Source: Patiria pectinifera (taxonomy: Eukaryota > Echinodermata > Asteroidea > Valvatida > Asterinidae). Taken from it: a stretch of 64,000 bases of DNA. Made by a program: the position numbers and the translations under genes. Of this stretch, positions 546 through 42,172 are shown one piece after another. Below the pieces are notes generated by a model. It was not told the DNA's origin. It saw only the letters and a program-made list of their open reading frames with translations, and made no database searches. The DNA lies in contig CM057129.1 in the NCBI GenBank assembly GCA_029964075.1, positions 13,383,430 through 13,447,429 on the forward strand, written 5' to 3'. Numbering within the stretch: the stretch's first letter is position 1; each line of letters opens with the position of its first letter.

Positions 546-1444
546 ATTTCATGGGCCCTCTAAACACTCGACTGAAGGATCAAATTGGATCATAACGATA
601 TGGCTATTGTAAAATATGCCACAAATAGCTTATAGTCAATAAATAATCTACGATATAACCACTCTTCCACACTTGTATCCTAAAAACTGCCGACTCTTTT
701 CCTGTCAAAATGCGGTTACTGAATTTACAATCCTTCATCGAAACCTATGGTACAAAGAGAGACATGGGTTGGATTGTATGAGTTGCACTTTTATCGTGAA
801 AATTGGAAATAAAATCAGGCCCGGAGTTATGTAGTCGGTTTTTTTTATTTGGTAATAATTTTGATATCCTTGGGTCATCTTGTGACGCTCTTTCAAGACC
901 GCACGTTCCACTGCGTCCTTGCAAGGGTTCGCAACAATAAAAACATCACATGCATCCCTTCCGCCCGTTACCATGGTTACCAAGGGCTGCTTCAGATGAC
1001 GTCACGGAGCAAGGAAAGGAGTAGCCAGTTTTCCCCCTTAAAAGAGTTCCGCTCAAATACAACCCTTCATTCGAGAGGTCTTTACTTCTGCTAATACTTC
1101 CCACACCCATCCCCCCGCGAAATGACCTCTTAACGAACTCGTTCCGCCATTTTGAAATGCTTCCTGGATTTCGGTCCATTTCGGCTCTTCAAAACACTTG
1201 TGGAGTGTTTTCCTTTAGTATTTGACTCGAACTATGTAAAGCATTGATCGGATGTACGGTGCATTCAAAGCCGAGTGTTTCCCTCATGGAGCGGGGCATG
1301 GGTAATTACAAACAAAATATCAAAGGAGTCAGAAGAAAGAGGGAAAAATGGAAGTCTAGGGATATAAATTACATGGACTTCCACTGTTTTCAAAGTAATG
1401 TGGTTTTTAGGTACGGGATAGCAGTTCAACAAAATAATCACCAA

Positions 1445-1640
1445 GTCTCTCCGTCAGTCCGTTAGTAAGTTAGTTAGTTAGTAACAAACGTTGACATTGT
1501 CTATTGCTCCTACATATTTTGACCGATTTCCACCAAACTTTGTCAAAAGTATCAAAAGCCCAGCCCTAACATGTCAGATGACCAAACTGGGGTCAAAGGT
1601 CATCGCGGGGTCGCTGGGGTCATAAACCTGATTTTTTTTA
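1445..1640 (+). repeat. Probable ancient repeat with TTAGTTAG run and GGTCA words
   Basis: A GTTAGTTAGTTAGTAAC run is followed by TTTGACCGATTTCCACCAAA, then GGGGTCAAAGGTCATCG and further GGGGTC words. The wording has the look of an old dispersed repeat. No second copy was found in this window, so the call is weak. Confidence 0.35.
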
Positions 1641-3129
1641 AAACTCAAAACACTACTCCTTCCAGAAGTTACATGGCACAGTCACGTGACTCGTGCATGA
1701 ACACGAATTCGTTGGCACGTAGCCTTCTGGGATATTTCCGATCAAGCTTGTTTTATCTATAGGCATTATCGCCGGCTCCGAGTAAAACATGTGAAAATCC
1801 TGTCTGTCTGACCGCTGTTTCAGATTTGATGAAAACCAAACACAATTAGGAAAATATCAAATGCAATGTTTAATCTCTAAACAATGTTTCGTCGGTGTGT
1901 ACTCTTAAGATGTCTTCTTTTCAAAGGTCTTCATTTACATTCTCCATTTATATGGTAATGCTGGAGGGTTTACTCCGGCAAAGCATTCTCGAAACTCGGC
2001 GCCATGATGAATCGAATACAGCTTGAAAACCTGATGAGATTGATACGGTAAAAGTATACATTTTTTTATGCAAAAAAAACAAAAATATATTTGTCTTCGG
2101 ACAGAGGTAATCAAACACTTGTTATCCCGTCGGGAGCGGTAGGGCAGACAATGACTTGTGCACTTAGAGATGACGACGACGACGACGCACAAACGCTCTG
2201 CGGTGCGGGATGAATAATAACACCTAAGCTTCATGCCGAAAAGGATATTAAAAAAGACACAGACTGATAATCACGTCTACCGGACAATGTTACTTATTCC
2301 CCTGGGGTGTTCCCGCCGAATATCACCAATGCGTCTGGTCTTACATTTGTAACACGGCACAAACCCCCTCCGGCACATCTACGGAAGCTTCTCCATATAT
2401 CGATTCTGGATAGAAAACGAAAATCTGCCGGCGGGGGGAAGATTCTGTCAGCTTTTTCCTCTTTGTTTCAACTCTGGCAATGCCAATAATTTGGTTGGAA
2501 GCGAGAAACAAAGACAATGATTTAAAGATGCATATGTGAAGTTGTGTTGCCATGGGCTGATGGGTTTATGGGATTGATTTTTAAGACGCCACCTTGAAAT
2601 CTAACGCTGAATATAATACAGCCAATCTTGACTCCCAAAATAATAACCACGTAGGATTTAGAAAATGACAGCCACAAAAACGTAACCGATGTATATTTTT
2701 AAAGTTTCTCTTTTTGAAATTATTAAGTTTGTTACAGTCTAACGTTAACAACAGCATCCCTACCTATAGACCTTGAAACACTGACGATGTAAAAAAAAAA
2801 AGACCCTGTCCAAAACAACCAGGAGACGACTTATAAGTCAGTGGTTGATCGTCGGTGACACTTGTGGTCACAATGACCTACATTCGTTGACCGTTAAACT
2901 CTCAAACTATCGGGGGGAAAACACTGAAAACGGGTACCAAAGAGACGAATTTCGGTGAAGATTTTTAAAAGCCTTGCGCGTGCTTCCATTTCACAGTTCT
3001 CCAAAATTTAAGAGAGTCACTGGTAAGAGAGTCGGTTGAAAAAATAACATGTTTGCAAGTTTATGGCTAGGTGCACGTACTAACCGGCCTTTGAGCTGTG
3101 TTTTTTCCCTAAGAAAGTTGGGATGGAAT

Positions 3130-3264
3130 GACTTGAGACATAATGACGGCATGCTTTATTTACATGTGCGCTTTCCTATGGGAGCCATGGGGATGAGAGC
3201 CGCCAAGCGCCAATAGGTAAGCGCACAAGTAAACAAAGCGTGAGTCATTATGTCTTAGGTCTAT
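3130..3264. mobile_element. CRE-palindrome foldback MITE, degenerate copy
   Basis: The left arm GAGACATAATGACGGCATG pairs with the right arm GAGTCATTATGTCTTAGG. Both arms continue with TTTACATGTGCGCTTTCCTA-like sequence. The closely matching element at 42033-42172 shows the intact form. It is about 130 bp. Confidence 0.8.
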
Positions 3265-5405
3265 CGGACCAAAAGTTGCCCTATTTTGCAATAGAGTGTA
3301 GGGATCATTTTGTTGTTTTTCAACATGGCGATGGGCTTGAGGATAACTTTTAGGGGTGATCACCTATAACGGGGAAAATCATCCATGCGTTATTGCTTAA
3401 CCCCCATAGGCCTAAACTTGAGAGTGAAAGAGGTTCATCATCCAGTACCGAGGTTAAATCAAGCTTTAGTTTTATGTATGTCTTGAACGACTGTGAGAGT
3501 TGTATTTTCCCCGATTACCTAAAGTGGGGGTATGTATCATGCGCGTCTATGAGAGTTCATGTACTGTCTGCACCCTTTGGATGTGATGAATAAGCTGCCA
3601 CCAAGCGTTGGCAAAGGCCTCCATTCCTTGGCCAATGTTCAAGTCAAGTTTTGGTCGTTGGTCACATCTATTCGTCACGCGCGTGCAGCCAGGCCCAAAG
3701 TGCGATTGCACAGCTGACACCGTGAATTCTGGAGTATTCTCGCAATGCCCCACCGCCCATATAAAACGATAAGTGCAGCCGGGCGCATGCCGGCTCGGCC
3801 CGGCCTGGACCGTCACAAAAGGCGCGAAAAAAATCGCGCCAAATTTTTTTGCAAAGCCATCGATCGTCTGCGGCCGGGGAGAACGACACTTGGTTTGCTA
3901 TCACGAACGATTTGAGAACTAGTAACGGGAACAGATTAATCTTCGATGGGAAAATTAACGAATATCATTTTCCCAGACCATTTCTACTTTCTGAATAATT
4001 TCTTAACATAGGCCTACTGGTGTATTGAAATGAGTTTTTAGCGCCGGAAATGTACTAGCAAATATAAGTGTCTTCAATAAAACTGTTGATCACAAATTAC
4101 TTTTTCGAGCATTTTTTTTTGTTGAGATTCGAGTGAAAATTTGTATTATACAGGTTAGAGTCGACGGACGTCTGGGCGCTTTTATATAGCCGTTCCTAGA
4201 AGCAAAAATGTCAATGTTCTTCGCGCTGTGCTTTCTTCTATAGCTGCCAGTCAAGCACTTATGGCTGTCAATCACATTTACTTTGAAAACAAAAATGAAA
4301 ACTGGGAGGTGATGTTTTCGCGCAGGTGATACTTCCATAGAGAGAAAAAACCAACCGCCGGAGGGGACATGAAGTGTGAAGAAGAGTCTCTGTTTGAATG
4401 GGACTTCGTCAAGACTGAGTATGCGTGAACACACTCCAACATGTCAAGCACATTTTGTTCTTTTGGTGTTGTTTTCCCCCGCTTTTCCCCCCTCTTTCAG
4501 AATTCGCGCCCTCCGGCGCCGGAAGGTTGATAATGATAAAACTAGACGAGCACCGACGACCCGGAGAATGGAATGGCTCTCCATCAAAGATGCAAGCGCC
4601 CGTGTATAGGAAAATGTCTTGAGTCGGTCTGACACGGGATACGTGTACGCTCGGGGGCAAACTGGGGAAAATTAATGCATCTCCGGTGCCGGTGTACAGG
4701 TGAAGATGATCTGACCGTGTGTGCAGTGTGGCACTCTCGCGTCATGTAGCCAGGCTAGGCATAATATCGGACGACCGAGGCAGCAAGCTACAGGTCACGT
4801 CCAAGCGGATAAGGCCAGTGTGCATTCACATTGTCGATGTTGATCCCACGCACATGGCAACAAGAAATCGAAAGGTCAAGGAACTTGCTGTATCCCATGC
4901 GAGCTAGACTCCACAGAGTCAAAGGCGGCCAGGGTGTGACGTCACCCTACCACTTAGGCCACCCATGCACCGGCCGCGAGAAATATCAGCGAAAAGGAGA
5001 TGTTTTCTTCGGTTCAATAATGGATTCAATCCGCAGAGGGTTGTATCAAAACATATGCCTACTGAGAGGACACGGTAATATTGTATGGGAATATCTCTCA
5101 TGTTTGTTACATGTATAAACGGATAATGCTGGATGTGGTAAAGAAGAAACTATAAAAACATCGTCACTGGCGCAAGTTGCTATGGCGTTGTACATAAAAC
5201 GTGACTTGCATGGAATCTGGACCTTTAACATGTATAATAGCGCGTGCGCAGAAGCACTTTCAAAAATCACATCTAAATCAAAATTAACCAGTTTCCTTTC
5301 TTTTTTCCTAAATCCCTATCCTCATTATTCATTTTATTCGCTACAATGGAATCTCCTCCTTCTTCTTTTAGTTGTTTTGTTTGACATTTTCAAAACAAAA
5401 TTCAT

Positions 5406-7350: not shown

Positions 7351-8375
7351 TACGTTGCTAACTCACGCGAAAAGAATGTGAGAAAAAAATATTTTTCGCA
7401 TTTCAGGCGAAACAATTTCAGCCGAAATACGTTTCCGAGCAATTACAAATGTGGATCCGTGCCAATAAAGGTGCAATCTCATGATAAATATCTCTTGATC
7501 TATACACGGTCCCAGTAACAACTCCACCAGCTCATTGTAATTGTTTTTCCTGATTTAGTCATTTTTTTTCTTACATACGCGGCTTAAATAGTATACAGAC
7601 GCAAGTTAAGTGGGGAAATCTATACCAAACATTAGCTGTTTAGGAAATTAGTTAAAGGGGCTTGAAATCCCCGAAGATTTCGTGTTTTCGATTCTTTACT
7701 TATGCTATTTAAAAGATCTAGTTGAAAGGAAACTAACCTAGTGTTTAACCGTTCCTGGGAAAAGACGAAGGAAACCCTATTGTTTACATCGGACACGACG
7801 GTGTACGCATACGTATTTCCTGTCGTTTTCATTTAATGTACGATTCACGTTGTGTGCGTCACATAAATTACATACAGCACCAATACACAAAAGTAGTTGC
7901 TTACACGTCCGCAGAAGATGAAGCCTAATGTAAAGTAAATGCATTGTTAATTAGAAGAAGGTCAAAAGGGAGTTTTTCTTTGCGTTTTTTTTCTCTTTAT
8001 GAAAAAAAACCCACAAAGGATCTGCCGCCTCTTCACAGCTTTGGGTAAACTGTACCACAAGACTGGCATGCAAAAACACCCCCACATTTTATGTCTCCGA
8101 TTCTGTAAACATCAATTCATTTTCTTCGTCTTGGCATTCACGAAGCTCCGTCTAGCGGCGCCGGCTTGCGATGCCCCGGGAAGACAGAGAGGACATTACC
8201 AAGAAACGGAAACAATAAACCTTTAATTCTGTTTTTGCTGAGGCGGGATGAACAAACAAACAAAAAACCTGCGTGAGTGCACTTTCTGAACAAAGCAAGA
8301 ATACTGAGGATTTTGGTGTTGGATTAAACTCCTGAATACTGTGTTCGAGCGACAAATTTTGCTAATCGCGTCCAC

Positions 8376-37215: not shown

Positions 37216-39438
37216 TGTGGTACATGTCTTTCATCGATGCACTTCCCATAGGATTGGCATTCTACAGGCATCTCAACACTAATTACGCCAAAGTTATTGC
37301 CCCGTGCGTTTCCCGTTCAACATTTTGCTTTATAAGACTGGGGCAATATTGTTCTATGCACTTCCCTTAGCACGTATGCGCTACTATCCATTGTAAATAA
37401 TAGTTCACAACTAGCATTTGATACATTTCCCCTGTGTTGCACTTTTCTTAATTAGCAATTTCACGCATGCTCAGTTCTGCGCGATGGGCAAGAATGGGAC
37501 TTTTGCAGCAACCAAACGTAAAATGCAGTAGGACCTTCACTCATGACTTTGGCTAGCTTGATTAGAAGTTCCTATCATTTGTTGTCAATTTGTTTCAAAC
37601 TTTGCTAAAAATAATCTGTGTTTAGTCATGAATTTAAATTTCCCGCCACGTAAATTGAAAAAAAAATGCACCATTTTGTTTTCACAACTTGTTCGATGAC
37701 TCCGCAGCCCATAATGCGCCCTCTATCGGCAGGATTACGCCTTGGTGTCTAGTCCCCGCCTCTCAACTGTGTCCTACCATCAGACGCCATGCATAAGCCG
37801 ATAACAGTGAGGCAATTATTAGTGCGCCTATGAACGCATCCAGATGATTAGCTGTATGCGAAATTAATGGCTACCTTCGACCGTAACGCAGCATTATCAC
37901 GCAAGCCTTCCTTCGGTAGACAACTCAGGGAGCCGGAGACAGCGACATGACAGATATAACCAGCGGGCGAGATGAGATAATTTCACCCACAACTCCTCCG
38001 CGATAGCCCTCAGTGGTCTACTCTATTCCCGGAAATCCGTGTAAATGCATTATATCGCCATGGTCTTCAACAATGCTTCACGTATCATCGCTAAGTAATT
38101 GGTTAATTTACTATAGGGTTTACTCAGAAAAGCTCAGGTTGACACCCATCTTTAAGTTCTTCGTCCCGAATTACATTGTACCAACAGGGATGTTATGTAC
38201 AATCTATGTTACGATAGGTAATCGATATGCACATCTAGATATTATTTTACTAGATAGTTAAAAGCCGATGCTTCAAAGAGAAAGTAAGTTGTGCTCATTC
38301 CGGAACTCTTCAGATGATAATCCGAGATGTTGTCGCAACAGAGAACATAATGCGGTTTCTTTCAATCACAATGATGTACATTATCAAGTATCATAGTTAA
38401 AGGATAAATAGACACCATTTTTTTGACAAACAGTTAAAAATGAAACTATCAAAATATCATGACATATCCTACTGGACTGTATGCCGCCATTTTCGAGAAA
38501 AAAAATTACCATCATTTTCTTGCGATGGTTAGGACAAAACCATCGAGCTTTTCAATAGAAACATTGGGGAAAACGGTTTACAGTTTTCTCAAAAAATGTA
38601 TATCTACTGAGCTGAAATTTCGAAAAGTAAGTTTTTTCTTAAAAACCTGCTTCGCATTTAATGTATCGTTGTTCCTTGAATCGGCAAAAGCACACTTGAT
38701 GGTGTCAATAACCTTTAAAGTAGAACCGTAAGCACCGAAATGATTTAAAAGCCTGCATCTGCTGCATAGGTTAATATTTTCATGAAGATTTGAAATAAAT
38801 TGACAGTAATAATCACACCAGGAGCATGCAACTCCAACGCAGAAATTACTTTCTGCGGTACACAGCGTGCGCAGTTTTGGCGTCTTCCCGCCCGCCAGTC
38901 TTGTAATAACACACACCGGCCCCTGCTTCTGAAATTCTCCACATTCGGACGCCGACAACAGCCGGGTCTAATAATAGCACACGGTTGAGAATGACGTCAT
39001 CGAGCGAGGGAACCCCGCCAGGGGGTTAGAAGAGAGAGAAAAAAATACTGGGTATGACACAATGATTTGCGCGAGAAAAAAAATATCCACAGCCTTATTT
39101 TTCACTGGTGGCTCGGACCGTGTAACTTAAAGCAGATCGCAAGGAGTTTTAGCGTTTCAATTTGTATATTCGCCTTCACTGACATTCTTGGTCATAAATC
39201 ATACATTTTTGTGCCAAGGCACAGGGTTTTAACTTCTACTGGTATTTGCAATGTTACAGAATCGTATCAGAGACATGTGACATGGATTTCGTTTGAGGAA
39301 GTCCCATGTAATTTATTCACTTGGACTTGAACTCCATAAATCTTCATTCCCGCTCAACTTCAAGCGCTGCATGCACAAAACGAATATTATACACATGAAC
39401 CTATAAGCTCCCTTTCAATCATTTTTGGTCGTGCATAT

Positions 39439-39862
39439 TGTAGCGGGATCCTAAAGGGCTCTTGTCCGCCAAATCCGGCCAAACGCAAGAAAAGGGGACA
39501 GACAGACGGGATTTCTTACTCTGAAGGAAGATCTCGTTTATTTCGCCAAGCGGACTCTGCGGGCAACTTGCCACACCGCTACCAGAACTGCAACTGATCA
39601 ATTCCCAGCATAGACGTACACACAATCTGAACAAATGTATACAAATGTAGCAACTTTACCCAACCCTGGAATCCAGCCAAGTTCTTCCCGCGCAATTGAA
39701 CAAAAGAACCCCACTTAGCCAACCTATTTGTAGAGCCTATTTCCGGAGCGCGCGCCAGCCAGACCCAAAACCAGGTCAGGTGCGCGCCGCCGGAGCCCCT
39801 CCGCCGGAGCACTAGTGCTAAAAAGCAATGACAACAAATGTGTGCATAGACTGTCCGTTACA
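39439..39862 (-). repeat. 3' LTR of the non-autonomous retroelement
   Basis: The repeat is 424 bp and identical as read to 41576-41999. On the minus strand it starts TGTAACGG and ends CGCTACA. The first 130 bases (minus strand) are GC-rich with GCGCGC blocks. It directly follows the polypurine tract, which makes it the 3' LTR. Confidence 0.93.
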
Positions 39863-39877
39863 CTACCCCCTCCTTAA
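39863..39877 (-). other. Polypurine tract of the retroelement
   Basis: The minus strand reads TAAGGAGGGGGTAG immediately before the 3' LTR start TGTAACGG. Position and purine content match a plus-strand priming site and fix the element orientation. Confidence 0.8.
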
Positions 39878-39954
39878 ATTGGGCCTATTCTCCTGAATAG
39901 GGGCACATATACAACACATTTTACATGAACTTTTTCTTTCTTTAACCCAACACT

Positions 39955-40225
39955 GGGTGTCCTCAAAGGATGTGGAGCAACGTTGATCTGGTCCCCAAAA
40001 TGGTTACTAAGATCAAACATTAATCCAGCAATCCATGATGACAACCTCTTCAACAGGGGAACATTTTAGAAACAACATGAGAAATCAAACACTTTACTTT
40101 GTTTATCAATGGGTGTCCTCAATGGAAGTTGATCAGCGTTGATTCTAGCCCCCAGACTGGTGCACAGAATCAAACAATGATACAACAAACCGTGACGACT
40201 AGCCTACCTTACAACAATTTCAACA
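39955..40225 (-). repeat. Diverged tandem duplication in the retroelement 3' untranslated region
   Basis: GGGTGTCCTCAA occurs at 39955 and 40111 (offset 156). The sequence after each copy aligns imperfectly: GTTGATC/GTTGATT, then CCCC, AGATCAAACA/GAATCAAACA and ATGATGACAACC/CGTGACGAC. It lies between ORF and 3' LTR and has no coding potential I recognise. Confidence 0.6.
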
Positions 40226-40292
40226 CATTCTTTTACAGTTTTTTTTTCCTTGTTCACTTTACTTGGAAACTGTCCTTTATGTCCTCACTTTT

Positions 40293-41525
40293 TCACAAAA
40301 CAATGTCCATCCAAGAGAGAACTTCTCTCCAGTCTCTGTCCTTGTTGCACTTCACAAGCTTCAGTGTCTTCAGCCGAGTACACAGGTCACATCGCTGTAC
40401 TCCTGCCGCCTGGTCGTTGACTCCCCAACCTTGCTTTGGTCCCGTTTTCTTCCGTGGTGTCTGTCCACGCACTGTTGTCTTCTCCGGCAGCCTCGTCTTC
40501 TGTGGTGCACCCCGCACCGGCGGATTCCCCATCTTCTTCGGCGGCCTCGTCTTCTGTGGTGCACCCTGCACCGGCGGATTCCCTGTCTTCTTCGGCGGCC
40601 TCATCTTCTGTGGTGCACCCTGCACCGGCGGATTCCCAGCCTTTGATGCTCCCTGCATCAACGGGTATCCTGTCTTCTGCGGTACTCCCTGTGCCTTCGG
40701 CCTCGTCTTCTTTGATGCGTCTTGCATCGCCGGATCCGCAGTCTGTTGGCTTACCGTTCTTGTCCCTGTCACGTGCACCTGCGGTCTGAAAGTCAATGTC
40801 GTTGCTTGCTCCAGCGGGGCTGCTTTCGCCGGGGGATAGTGCCGCTCCGGCTCGGTTGCCGTCACCTGAACATGAAGGTCAGTGTCTTGTGGTCGATTGT
40901 CCGTGGTCTGAGTTGCTGTCCCGGCAGTACGGCGGTCGATGAGTTCAGCGTGCTCCGGCTGATCGGCATGCACCAGCGGAGCCGTCCACAACGGTGGATC
41001 AGTGTGCATCGATGGAGATGTCCGCAACGATGGAGCTATCGATGTGCAGCTAAAGTTCTCCGCAGCAGTTGGATCAGGACTGGAAAAGTCAGTGCATCCA
41101 CGAACCTCGATCCGATGGACAGCCGCCATGCTCGCCAGTATCACGGGACGGGGCTCCACGTCAACAGCAGGGCTATCATCGCTCGCAGCGGCCTCCCTAC
41201 TCGTGGTCTCCCCATTCACGCGACAACCCGGCCTAACATCAACTTCTGCCCCCGGACCGCTGAACAGGCTTGCTCGTCGTTCATCTTCATCCTGATCCGC
41301 ACTGGTAGAATTATCGGAGCTGTACATCGCTTCCAATTCGGCGATCATTTTATTGATCTTCTGCAACACACCTAACGCTGAACCAGTTGCCTGTGGACTA
41401 CGTCTGTCCGAGGAATGGGCTGATCCACAAATCTGCCGCTCCAAGGAGTCTCCCACCTTCCGAACGTCAATGATGACATCGTTGATGGCGTCCGCGATCT
41501 CAACTGCGGCTCGGCTTTCCGTCAT
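40293..41525 (-). CDS. 410-aa ORF of the LTR retroelement, unknown function (gag-position protein)
   Basis: The ORF starts with ATG about 50 bp after the 5' LTR, where gag normally sits, and encodes 410 residues. Residues 1-70 look helical and possibly coiled-coil (VIIDVRKVGDSLERQI; VLQKINKMIAELEAM), followed by an acidic patch (DQDEDERR). The middle is Ser/Thr/Pro/Ala-rich and low complexity. Near residues 290-355 an 18-residue unit resembling KTGNPPVQGAPQKTRPPK is repeated about three times and is strongly basic. The C-terminus has RCDLCTRLKTLKLVKC, a CX2CX10C pattern that is not a standard CCHC zinc knuckle. I recognise no family. It could be a degenerate or replaced Gag that binds nucleic acid through the basic repeat; that is inference. 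An intact frame between identical LTRs suggests recent function or simply youth. Confidence 0.7.
   Translation of the reverse strand: MTESRAAVEIADAINDVIIDVRKVGDSLERQICGSAHSSDRRSPQATGSALGVLQKINKMIAELEAMYSSDNSTSADQDEDERRASLFSGPGAEVDVRPGCRVNGETTSREAAASDDSPAVDVEPRPVILASMAAVHRIEVRGCTDFSSPDPTAAENFSCTSIAPSLRTSPSMHTDPPLWTAPLVHADQPEHAELIDRRTAGTATQTTDNRPQDTDLHVQVTATEPERHYPPAKAAPLEQATTLTFRPQVHVTGTRTVSQQTADPAMQDASKKTRPKAQGVPQKTGYPLMQGASKAGNPPVQGAPQKMRPPKKTGNPPVQGAPQKTRPPKKMGNPPVRGAPQKTRLPEKTTVRGQTPRKKTGPKQGWGVNDQAAGVQRCDLCTRLKTLKLVKCNKDRDWREVLSWMDIVL
40491..40652 (-). repeat. 54-bp in-frame tandem repeat inside the retroelement ORF
   Basis: Three copies of a 54-bp unit start at 40491, 40545 and 40599 (plus-strand CCTCRTCTTCTGTGGTGCAC). 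Each encodes 18 residues around GNPPVQGAPQK on the minus strand. The period is a multiple of three, so the frame is preserved, and the opposite strand is also open across it. Confidence 0.9.
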
Positions 41526-41554
41526 TTCCAGTCATTAGTCCAAAATCCCGTCAA

Positions 41555-41573
41555 TATCCCGCCGCTGCCACCA
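41555..41573 (-). other. Candidate primer-binding site of the retroelement
   Basis: On the minus strand, TGGTGGCAGCGGCGGGAT begins two to three bases after the 5' LTR end. A TGG start complementary to a tRNA CCA end is expected there. I could not assign the tRNA by eye. Confidence 0.55.
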
Positions 41574-41575
41574 TT

Positions 41576-41999
41576 TGTAGCGGGATCCTAAAGGGCTCTT
41601 GTCCGCCAAATCCGGCCAAACGCAAGAAAAGGGGACAGACAGACGGGATTTCTTACTCTGAAGGAAGATCTCGTTTATTTCGCCAAGCGGACTCTGCGGG
41701 CAACTTGCCACACCGCTACCAGAACTGCAACTGATCAATTCCCAGCATAGACGTACACACAATCTGAACAAATGTATACAAATGTAGCAACTTTACCCAA
41801 CCCTGGAATCCAGCCAAGTTCTTCCCGCGCAATTGAACAAAAGAACCCCACTTAGCCAACCTATTTGTAGAGCCTATTTCCGGAGCGCGCGCCAGCCAGA
41901 CCCAAAACCAGGTCAGGTGCGCGCCGCCGGAGCCCCTCCGCCGGAGCACTAGTGCTAAAAAGCAATGACAACAAATGTGTGCATAGACTGTCCGTTACA
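41576..41999 (-). repeat. 5' LTR of the non-autonomous retroelement
   Basis: This is the second 424-bp copy. It lies upstream of the ORF on the minus strand, so it would carry the promoter. I did not identify a TATA box with confidence. The flanking ATAT at 42000 completes the target duplication. Confidence 0.93.
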
Positions 42000-42032
42000 A
42001 TATTATTCACTGTGCCTGTTAGATATGTTCCT

Positions 42033-42172
42033 ATAGACCTGAGACATAATGACGTCACGTTTTGTTTACATATGCGCTTTCTTATGGGAGCCAGGTGGAG
42101 ACGAGAGCCACCAAGCTCACATAAGAAAGTGCACATGTAAACAAAGCGTGACGTCATTATGTCTCACGGATT
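42033..42172. mobile_element. CRE-palindrome foldback MITE, intact copy
   Basis: The termini are ATAGACCTGAGACATAATGA and its complement ending in TCATTATGTCTC. TGACGTCACG sits in each arm, followed by TTGTTTACAT and GCGCTTTCTTATG. The arms pair for about 55 bp with a short loop near 42100. It lies about 35 bp to the right of the LTR element, but is unrelated to it in sequence. Confidence 0.85.

Follow-up and report, generated by a model that had tools for sequence, protein, structure and literature searches.

In wheat, the Wilma/Sabrina/WHAM system comprises a complete Gypsy element, a Gag-protease element, and short variants with unique coding segments, and host switches have been proposed there via transfer of the long terminal repeats (LTRs) by conversion or template switching, as described in part of the published account (PMC9744471). 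Movement of a TR-GAG element has likewise been reported in plants, according to one portion of that source (PMC8704663). In bivalves, TRIMs of under 1000 bp are described for which neither a partner nor a clear primer-binding site (PBS) was found, at least in the part of the report cited here (PMC6934838), while in grass pararetroviruses the noncoding regulatory stretches of defective and helper members are, in the relevant part of that work, said to be homogenized by region-specific recombination (PMC5491270). The present analysis concerns a 64,000-nucleotide window of Patiria pectinifera (CM057129.1, 13,383,430-13,447,429), whose own numbering is used for all positions, and within it an LTR element of 2,561 bp on the minus strand (39439-41999), which lacks pol and carries a single open reading frame (ORF) of 410 codons.

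The locus is probably a recent insertion belonging to a Ty3/Gypsy satellite family that is non-autonomous and mobilized in trans, the ORF being a relaxed remnant in the Gag position. One genome would thus hold a probable helper-satellite set, composed of a pol-bearing Gypsy element, a satellite with a protease and zinc knuckle, and a satellite with an unrecognized ORF, in which a candidate exchange tract names the likely helper. Such a set permits a clean test of what, if anything, a satellite ORF is retained for: the protein that it encodes or the open frame as such. By analogy, it may work like the wheat, TR-GAG, and pararetrovirus cases; the family is a new one of a known kind, without any claim that it is unpublished, and the individual element is ordinary in kind. 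Its odd feature is that the frame persists among copies although the amino acids are under no visible constraint.

Like the wheat system, the set includes complete, semi-autonomous, and short members, and only a few motifs remain homologous between partners; unlike that system, in which Sabrina measures 6.6-8.3 kb in a plant according to the part of the account used here (PMC9744471), the window satellite is 2.56 kb long and contains a candidate exchange tract of polypurine tract (PPT) and U3 sequence. Two LTRs, one ORF, and an autonomous partner thought to move the element are shared with plant TR-GAG, although the TR-GAG ORF, as presented in part of that report, has a recognizable Gag and the window ORF has none by Pfam (PMC8704663). 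An apparently homogenized noncoding stretch is shared with the grass pararetroviruses, from which the element differs in that these are pararetroviruses with grass hosts, as far as the cited part of the work describes them (PMC5491270). Like the bivalve TRIMs, the element is a non-autonomous animal LTR element, but at 2,561 bp and with a 410-codon ORF it lies outside the bound of 1000 bp given in the cited part of that study (PMC6934838). The ORF itself has no Pfam match up to E = 1 and resembles Gag weakly, at its N-terminus. In the original description of TR-GAG elements, the single ORF reportedly has a Gag domain. LARD elements have a long noncoding internal domain of over 4 kb, and the internal region here measures 1,713 bp. 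Ant TRIMs are reportedly also non-autonomous animal LTR elements, and TRIMs are not known to carry a long ORF or to have coding capacity.

Structure of the element and its family

The element possesses the features of an LTR retrotransposon, namely paired LTRs with TG...CA ends, a target duplication, a PBS, and a PPT. An initial annotation of this DNA had described it as young, structurally intact, and non-autonomous, with identical 424-bp LTRs, a 4-bp target duplication, a surviving PPT and PBS candidate, and no pol; all of this was confirmed, and the orientation on the minus strand, which had been missing, was added. The 5' LTR (TGTAACGG...CGCTACA; 41576-41999, minus strand) and the 3' LTR (39439-39862, minus strand) show 0 mismatches over 424 bp, and this identity, together with the structure of the element, supports its description as young, intact, and non-autonomous. 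The duplication ATAT is present on both flanks (GTGCATAT / ATATTATT), at 39435-39438 on the left and 42000-42003 on the right. The PPT, AAGGAGGGGGTAG (39863-39878, minus strand), abuts the 3' LTR at 39863, and the PBS, TGGTGGCAGCGGCGGGATA (41573-41555 in the reading direction of the minus strand), lies just inside the 5' LTR, being complementary to CCA plus the 3' end of what is presumably tRNA-Leu. Among 14 copies, the PBS takes the form found in the window in two, has T for the variable C in six, reads AGCTGGTGGG in five, and has another form in one. AATAAA, a candidate polyadenylation signal, is seen in both the 5' LTR (41674-41679) and the 3' LTR (39537-39542), again on the minus strand.

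Searches of the host assembly (613.5 Mb, 1020 contigs) demonstrated that the element is a member of a multicopy family. The LTR gave at least 41 listed matches (354 first-look candidates, 40 scored), and a search with the ORF produced 102 (112 candidates), the weaker of which in many cases correspond to a 54-bp repeat within it. Zero differences were found in three of 14 LTR pairs (the window element, L014, and L010), two of the 14 belonging to one tandem array; of the remainder, seven differ by 1-6 sites, the two pairs of L015 by 5 and 10, that of L020 by 30, and that of L037 by 109. The average divergence among 13 copies is about 3-5%, in LTRs and internal parts alike, which, set against the LTR-pair differences, indicates that most of the difference between copies predates insertion and arose in transposing lineages. 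All 17 target duplications collected by hand (11 elements and 6 solo LTRs, excluding L016 and L037, whose flanks lack a clear duplication) are 4 bp long, and TA stands at the center of 16 of them.

The pol-bearing relative and the shared terminal tract

The initial annotation had suggested looking for full-length relatives containing pol by means of the LTR. One such relative, L057, was found, although it was reached through the 3' stretch and its PPT block, its LTR being only 82% identical to that of the window element. The 3' untranslated stretch (39863-40292, minus strand) is partly homologous to the sequence following pol in L057 and following the ORF in L058, as detected by nhmmer (E 1.7e-20 and 8.1e-25, respectively). 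When the genome was searched with 39863-40295, the matches listed (69 candidates, 40 scored) included 10 loci outside the family that carry the LTR-proximal 69 bp (39863-39931, minus strand), containing the PPT, at 96-97% identity, and no other part of the query was reported at these loci. The PBS junction pattern, with up to two mismatches allowed, has 96 genome-wide matches against 0 for a reversed control, and the distance from the PPT block to the nearest PBS match on the same strand is about 6.6-8.2 kb at five of the ten loci and about 2.2-2.4 kb at the other five. Three of the ten loci were read: L056, L057, and L058.

The probable helper, L057, is of Ty3/Gypsy type and 7.7 kb long. It encodes Gag, protease, reverse transcriptase (RT), RNase H, and integrase, as well as two C2H2 fingers, and its LTRs (564-985 and 7819-8240) share 99.8% identity. 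Its first open stretch of 427 codons (407 from Met) is Gag-like, with Retrotrans_gag and zf-CCHC just under their cut-offs, and its second long frame contains aspartyl protease, RVT_1, RNase H, H2C2, rve, and p58_C above cut-offs. The order protease, RT, RNase H, integrase typical of Ty3/Gypsy was obtained by searching L057 piecewise, the window element itself having no pol, and the closest PDB sequence to the RT piece is Ty3 (E 1.5e-59). The two C2H2 zinc-finger stretches (L057:6361-7221) lie C-terminally in the pol frame, downstream of integrase, and the C2H2 part also occurs in L058. An older copy of the same kind is L056, whose Gag frame is in two pieces and whose LTRs are 95.8% identical. 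Target duplications are ATAT in L057, GTAT in L056, and TTAT in L058. As a control for constraint, L056 and L057 were compared by omega, the ratio of nonsynonymous to synonymous substitution rates (dN/dS), giving 0.10 for the Gag part and 0.69, 0.23, 0.54, and 0.79 for four pol pieces; the control is weak because L056 is old and the last piece, at 84% identity, probably contains a frame or alignment fault.

A second pol-less element, L058 (C8:15733600-15742400, minus strand 1422-3290), has an open stretch of 675 codons. Searched with domain models in two pieces, it contains an aspartyl protease and C2H2 above cut-offs and a weak CCHC knuckle (E 0.008, below cut-off), and when aligned it retains the Gag N-terminus with most of the capsid missing. 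Among the matches listed in a genome search with 623 of its codons are other copies, 92-96% identical, in which long frames are open. The LTRs of L058 match those of L057 at 98.6-98.8% identity, whereas synonymous divergence (dS) exceeds 1.4 in three coding parts, where omega is 0.18 for the Gag N-terminus, 0.07 for the protease, and 0.12 for C2H2; the piece over the capsid end and knuckle is saturated at silent sites and gives no omega. As read from its sequence, L058 shows a stronger mosaic relative to L057 than the window element does.

The window element belongs to the lineage of L057 by its homologous LTR, PBS, PPT, and 3' stretch and by its 4-bp NTAN duplication, and the first ~35 bp past the LTR also match the helper. 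Similarity is concentrated in a candidate exchange tract (39743-39931, minus strand), delimited from the identity profile against L057 and made up of the PPT block and the adjoining 120 nt of U3. Within it, 8 of 189 positions mismatch, compared with 70 of 302 elsewhere in the LTR. All 13 short copies compared, including L019 and both tandem twins, share this pattern, the tract being 93-96% identical to L057 and the rest of the LTR 74-79% (p 4e-9 to 1.7e-6, values that are not independent, given the relatedness of the copies and a border at 120 set after the profile had been viewed). Comparison of the short copies with one another shows the tract to be as variable as the remainder (identity 0.961 versus 0.964, pooled pairs of 13 copies). 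Since the tract evolves no more slowly than the rest there, exchange by template switching or conversion, and not slow evolution, is indicated as the source of its likeness to the helper.

The mechanism proposed for the satellite begins with transcription from the LTR, which host RNA polymerase would perform. The pol-bearing Gypsy lineage of the same genome, of which L057 is the copy read, would supply capsid, RT, and integrase in trans. The satellite RNA would be co-packaged with helper RNA, because the two families appear to have exchanged the PPT and U3 tract, and template switching during LTR retrotransposon replication requires both RNAs to be in the same particle. Priming would presumably be by tRNA-Leu at the PBS seen in the element, and reverse transcription and integration would be carried out by the Gypsy helper, as the common PBS, PPT, LTR ends, and duplication support. 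In sequence, the satellite retains its PBS, PPT and U3, and LTR ends as well as the 4-bp NTAN target choice, all of which the helper machinery would have to recognize.

The 410-codon frame and competing explanations

The ORF (40293-41525, minus strand, from ATG) is the only one of the element and occupies the Gag position. At 410 amino acids, it is unmatched in length by any ORF in 1000 first-order Markov sequences modeled on the internal region (largest 366 amino acids), and its content of guanine and cytosine is above the window mean of 0.406. Three 54-bp tandem units (40476-40637, minus strand) encode the basic Pro/Gln repeat already recognized in the initial annotation, and the window copy carries more of these units than most of the 19 copies used below; the absence of a CCHC knuckle was also borne out, as no such motif is visible in the translation. 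The profile searches and structure prediction that had been suggested yielded no match in Pfam up to E = 1, no match among PDB sequences up to E = 5, and AlphaFold2 models of 13 open frames whose mean predicted local distance difference test score (pLDDT) of 35.5 is too low for fold comparison. Helices are predicted at residues 2-34, 44-69, 374-391, and 399-409, the two N-terminal ones with low confidence, with no structure between them. The protein is predicted to be mostly disordered, with no known domain.

Concerning its origin, the initial annotation had considered either a diverged Gag or an acquired gene. The N-terminus of the ORF aligns with the Gag N-terminus at a score reached by 13 of 1000 shuffles for L057 and 8 of 1000 for L058, the full ORF with the L058 frame, as far as the Pro-rich linker, at 7 of 1000, the middle part with L058 at 8 of 1000, and the full ORF with L057 Gag at 30 of 1000, whereas the C-terminus does not rise above shuffles against the C2H2 part (281 of 1000 for L057, 208 of 1000 for L058); these seven tests are uncorrected, and low-complexity composition may inflate the scores. 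This weak resemblance suggests that the ORF descends from Gag, most likely as a remnant or strongly diverged piece of the Gag N-terminus that is joined to a Pro-rich linker and lacks both capsid and zinc knuckle.

For the behavior of the frame among copies, 29 copies and fragments were aligned to the window, of which 14 rows contain no stop or frameshift in the covered part. A set of 19 full-coverage copies was retained after removal of L019, L037, and L046 (dense indels), L051 (very old), L015b (a tandem twin), and the partial L027, L028, L047, L048, and L049. The initial annotation had allowed that the ORF might be broken in all other copies; it is open in 13 of the 19 and broken in L013, L015, L017, L031, L044, and L045. 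A chance frame was also considered. On gap-free columns the ORF frame is open in eight of eight copies, and each of the five other frames has at least five stops in each copy; omega failed to single out the true frame in these eight copies (0.81, versus 0.76-1.05 for the other frames).

The comparison of dN/dS between copies, which had likewise been suggested, gave values near 1. In the 13 open copies, a set picked for openness and hence uninformative on stops, omega corrected for the mutation spectrum is 1.06 (95% 0.80-1.46), and changes at codon positions 1, 2, and 3 number 66, 66, and 69. Across the 19 copies, omega is 0.81 (0.52-1.25) for changes shared by at least two copies and 1.33 (0.86-2.05) for private ones (difference p = 0.15), and in nine additional copies, most of them older, differences from the window number 130, 145, and 156 at codon positions 1, 2, and 3. 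The first Cys of a C-terminal CxxC is absent in 8 of the 13 open copies and kept in 5. Substitutions among the copies thus look neutral, and amino-acid constraint is below detection. The ORF is open in most full-coverage copies, but, with no detectable constraint on its amino-acid sequence, a dedicated functional protein is unsupported. A need for the ORF at the amino-acid level is unsupported, and the sign that the frame is being kept is weak.

Several observations weigh against a trans-mobilized satellite with a relaxed Gag remnant. Mobilization in trans is suggested by sequence evidence, and since two long and one short helper-type relatives were read, a closer helper may exist. An hhalign comparison of the ORF alignment with the Gag alignment is not significant (E 0.086), and four pieces spanning the ORF gave no DNA match in L056, L057, or L058 with E up to 1, so that Gag ancestry stays a suggestion. 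Shared indels are multiples of three in four of five cases within the ORF, compared with one of nine outside it (p = 0.023), counts that are small, were made by hand with a poly-T run set aside, and depend on the authors' choice of which gap patterns represent one event; together with the 13 open copies, they hint at selection for openness. The sole out-of-frame shared indel in the ORF sits at the stop codon. Finally, L056 and L057 differ at 2 of 175 positions in the tract and at 16 of 302 in the rest (p = 0.024), which favors constraint on the tract over exchange.

These indels, together with the number of open copies and the length of the ORF relative to simulated sequences, agree with a working accessory protein under selection, for example a diverged matrix-like Gag co-assembling with helper Gag, and the low-confidence helices at 2-34 and 44-69 and the mainly silent changes between L058 and L057 in the Gag N-terminus and protease point the same way. 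The equal spread of changes over codon positions, in open and in older copies, the omega near 1, the low pLDDT, and the loss of the first CxxC Cys in most open copies nevertheless make such a protein fairly unlikely. A little less probable is the reading in which strong functional constraint alone, without exchange, accounts for the likeness of the PPT and U3 tract to the helper. In LTR elements, functional sites include the PPT and the U3 ends, and the slower tract between L056 and L057 means that constraint may contribute, but within the short family the tract varies as freely as its surroundings.

It is unlikely that the frame is kept while its sequence is free, translation itself protecting or routing the RNA so that stops and frameshifts alone are purged. 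In-frame shared indels combined with an omega near 1 are what this would produce, but the counts are small, six of the 19 copies are broken, and stops are not clearly depleted, with 1 observed versus 4.1 expected among private changes (P = 0.083) and 2 versus 3.2 among shared ones (P = 0.37), the apparent stops (2 by reconstruction in the 13 open copies, 3 by site-by-site coding in the 19) being taken mostly as codons changed at two sites. That the satellite lineage has held a long frame open across rounds of transposition while its amino acids drifted freely seems more unlikely still; if true, the frame would serve the RNA, through stability or translation-coupled packaging, and not protein function. 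Capture of a host gene, with which the lack of a Gag domain by Pfam would agree, is very improbable, as the strong genome matches to the ORF that were examined all fall in copies of the element's own family, in a six-frame intronless search that a distant spliced gene could escape, and the idea of an acquired gene was dropped.

Further copies and neighboring features

Other loci were assessed and set aside. L037, considered as a possible helper for its 49% protein match, is instead another copy of the family with dense small indels, and L052, L053, and L055 are old truncated copies. L059 and L060, which have the exact PBS junction, represent a decayed different element in which no gag-pol frame was seen, and L061 shares the PBS but otherwise gives only short matches; the PBS sequence of the window element therefore also adjoins different elements of the genome.

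Several copies have unusual structures. Small indels are dense in the ORF of L037 (44), L019 (32), and L046 (11), with only 2-4% substitutions there in L037 and L019, which looks like unpolished assembly rather than ageing. The LTR pair of L020:5001-7509 differs at 30 of 424 sites despite TTAT on both flanks, suggesting conversion or recombination between copies. L015:1001-5549 is a tandem array of the form LTR-internal-LTR-internal-LTR, and L018:501-3296 has an extra partial LTR, both of which are likely results of unequal recombination. L054 and L049, about 58 kb apart on C21, cover internal positions 1-290 and 287-1249 and apparently belong to a single copy that either a large insertion or the assembly has divided.

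Scans of the whole window with Rfam and for tRNAs gave no matches, and 24 loci scanned for tRNAs yielded a single doubtful call. About 40 bp outside the element, an inverted repeat of foldback type (42040-42166) has 59-nt arms that are 90% complementary, and a related stretch is present elsewhere in the window at 3130-3271.

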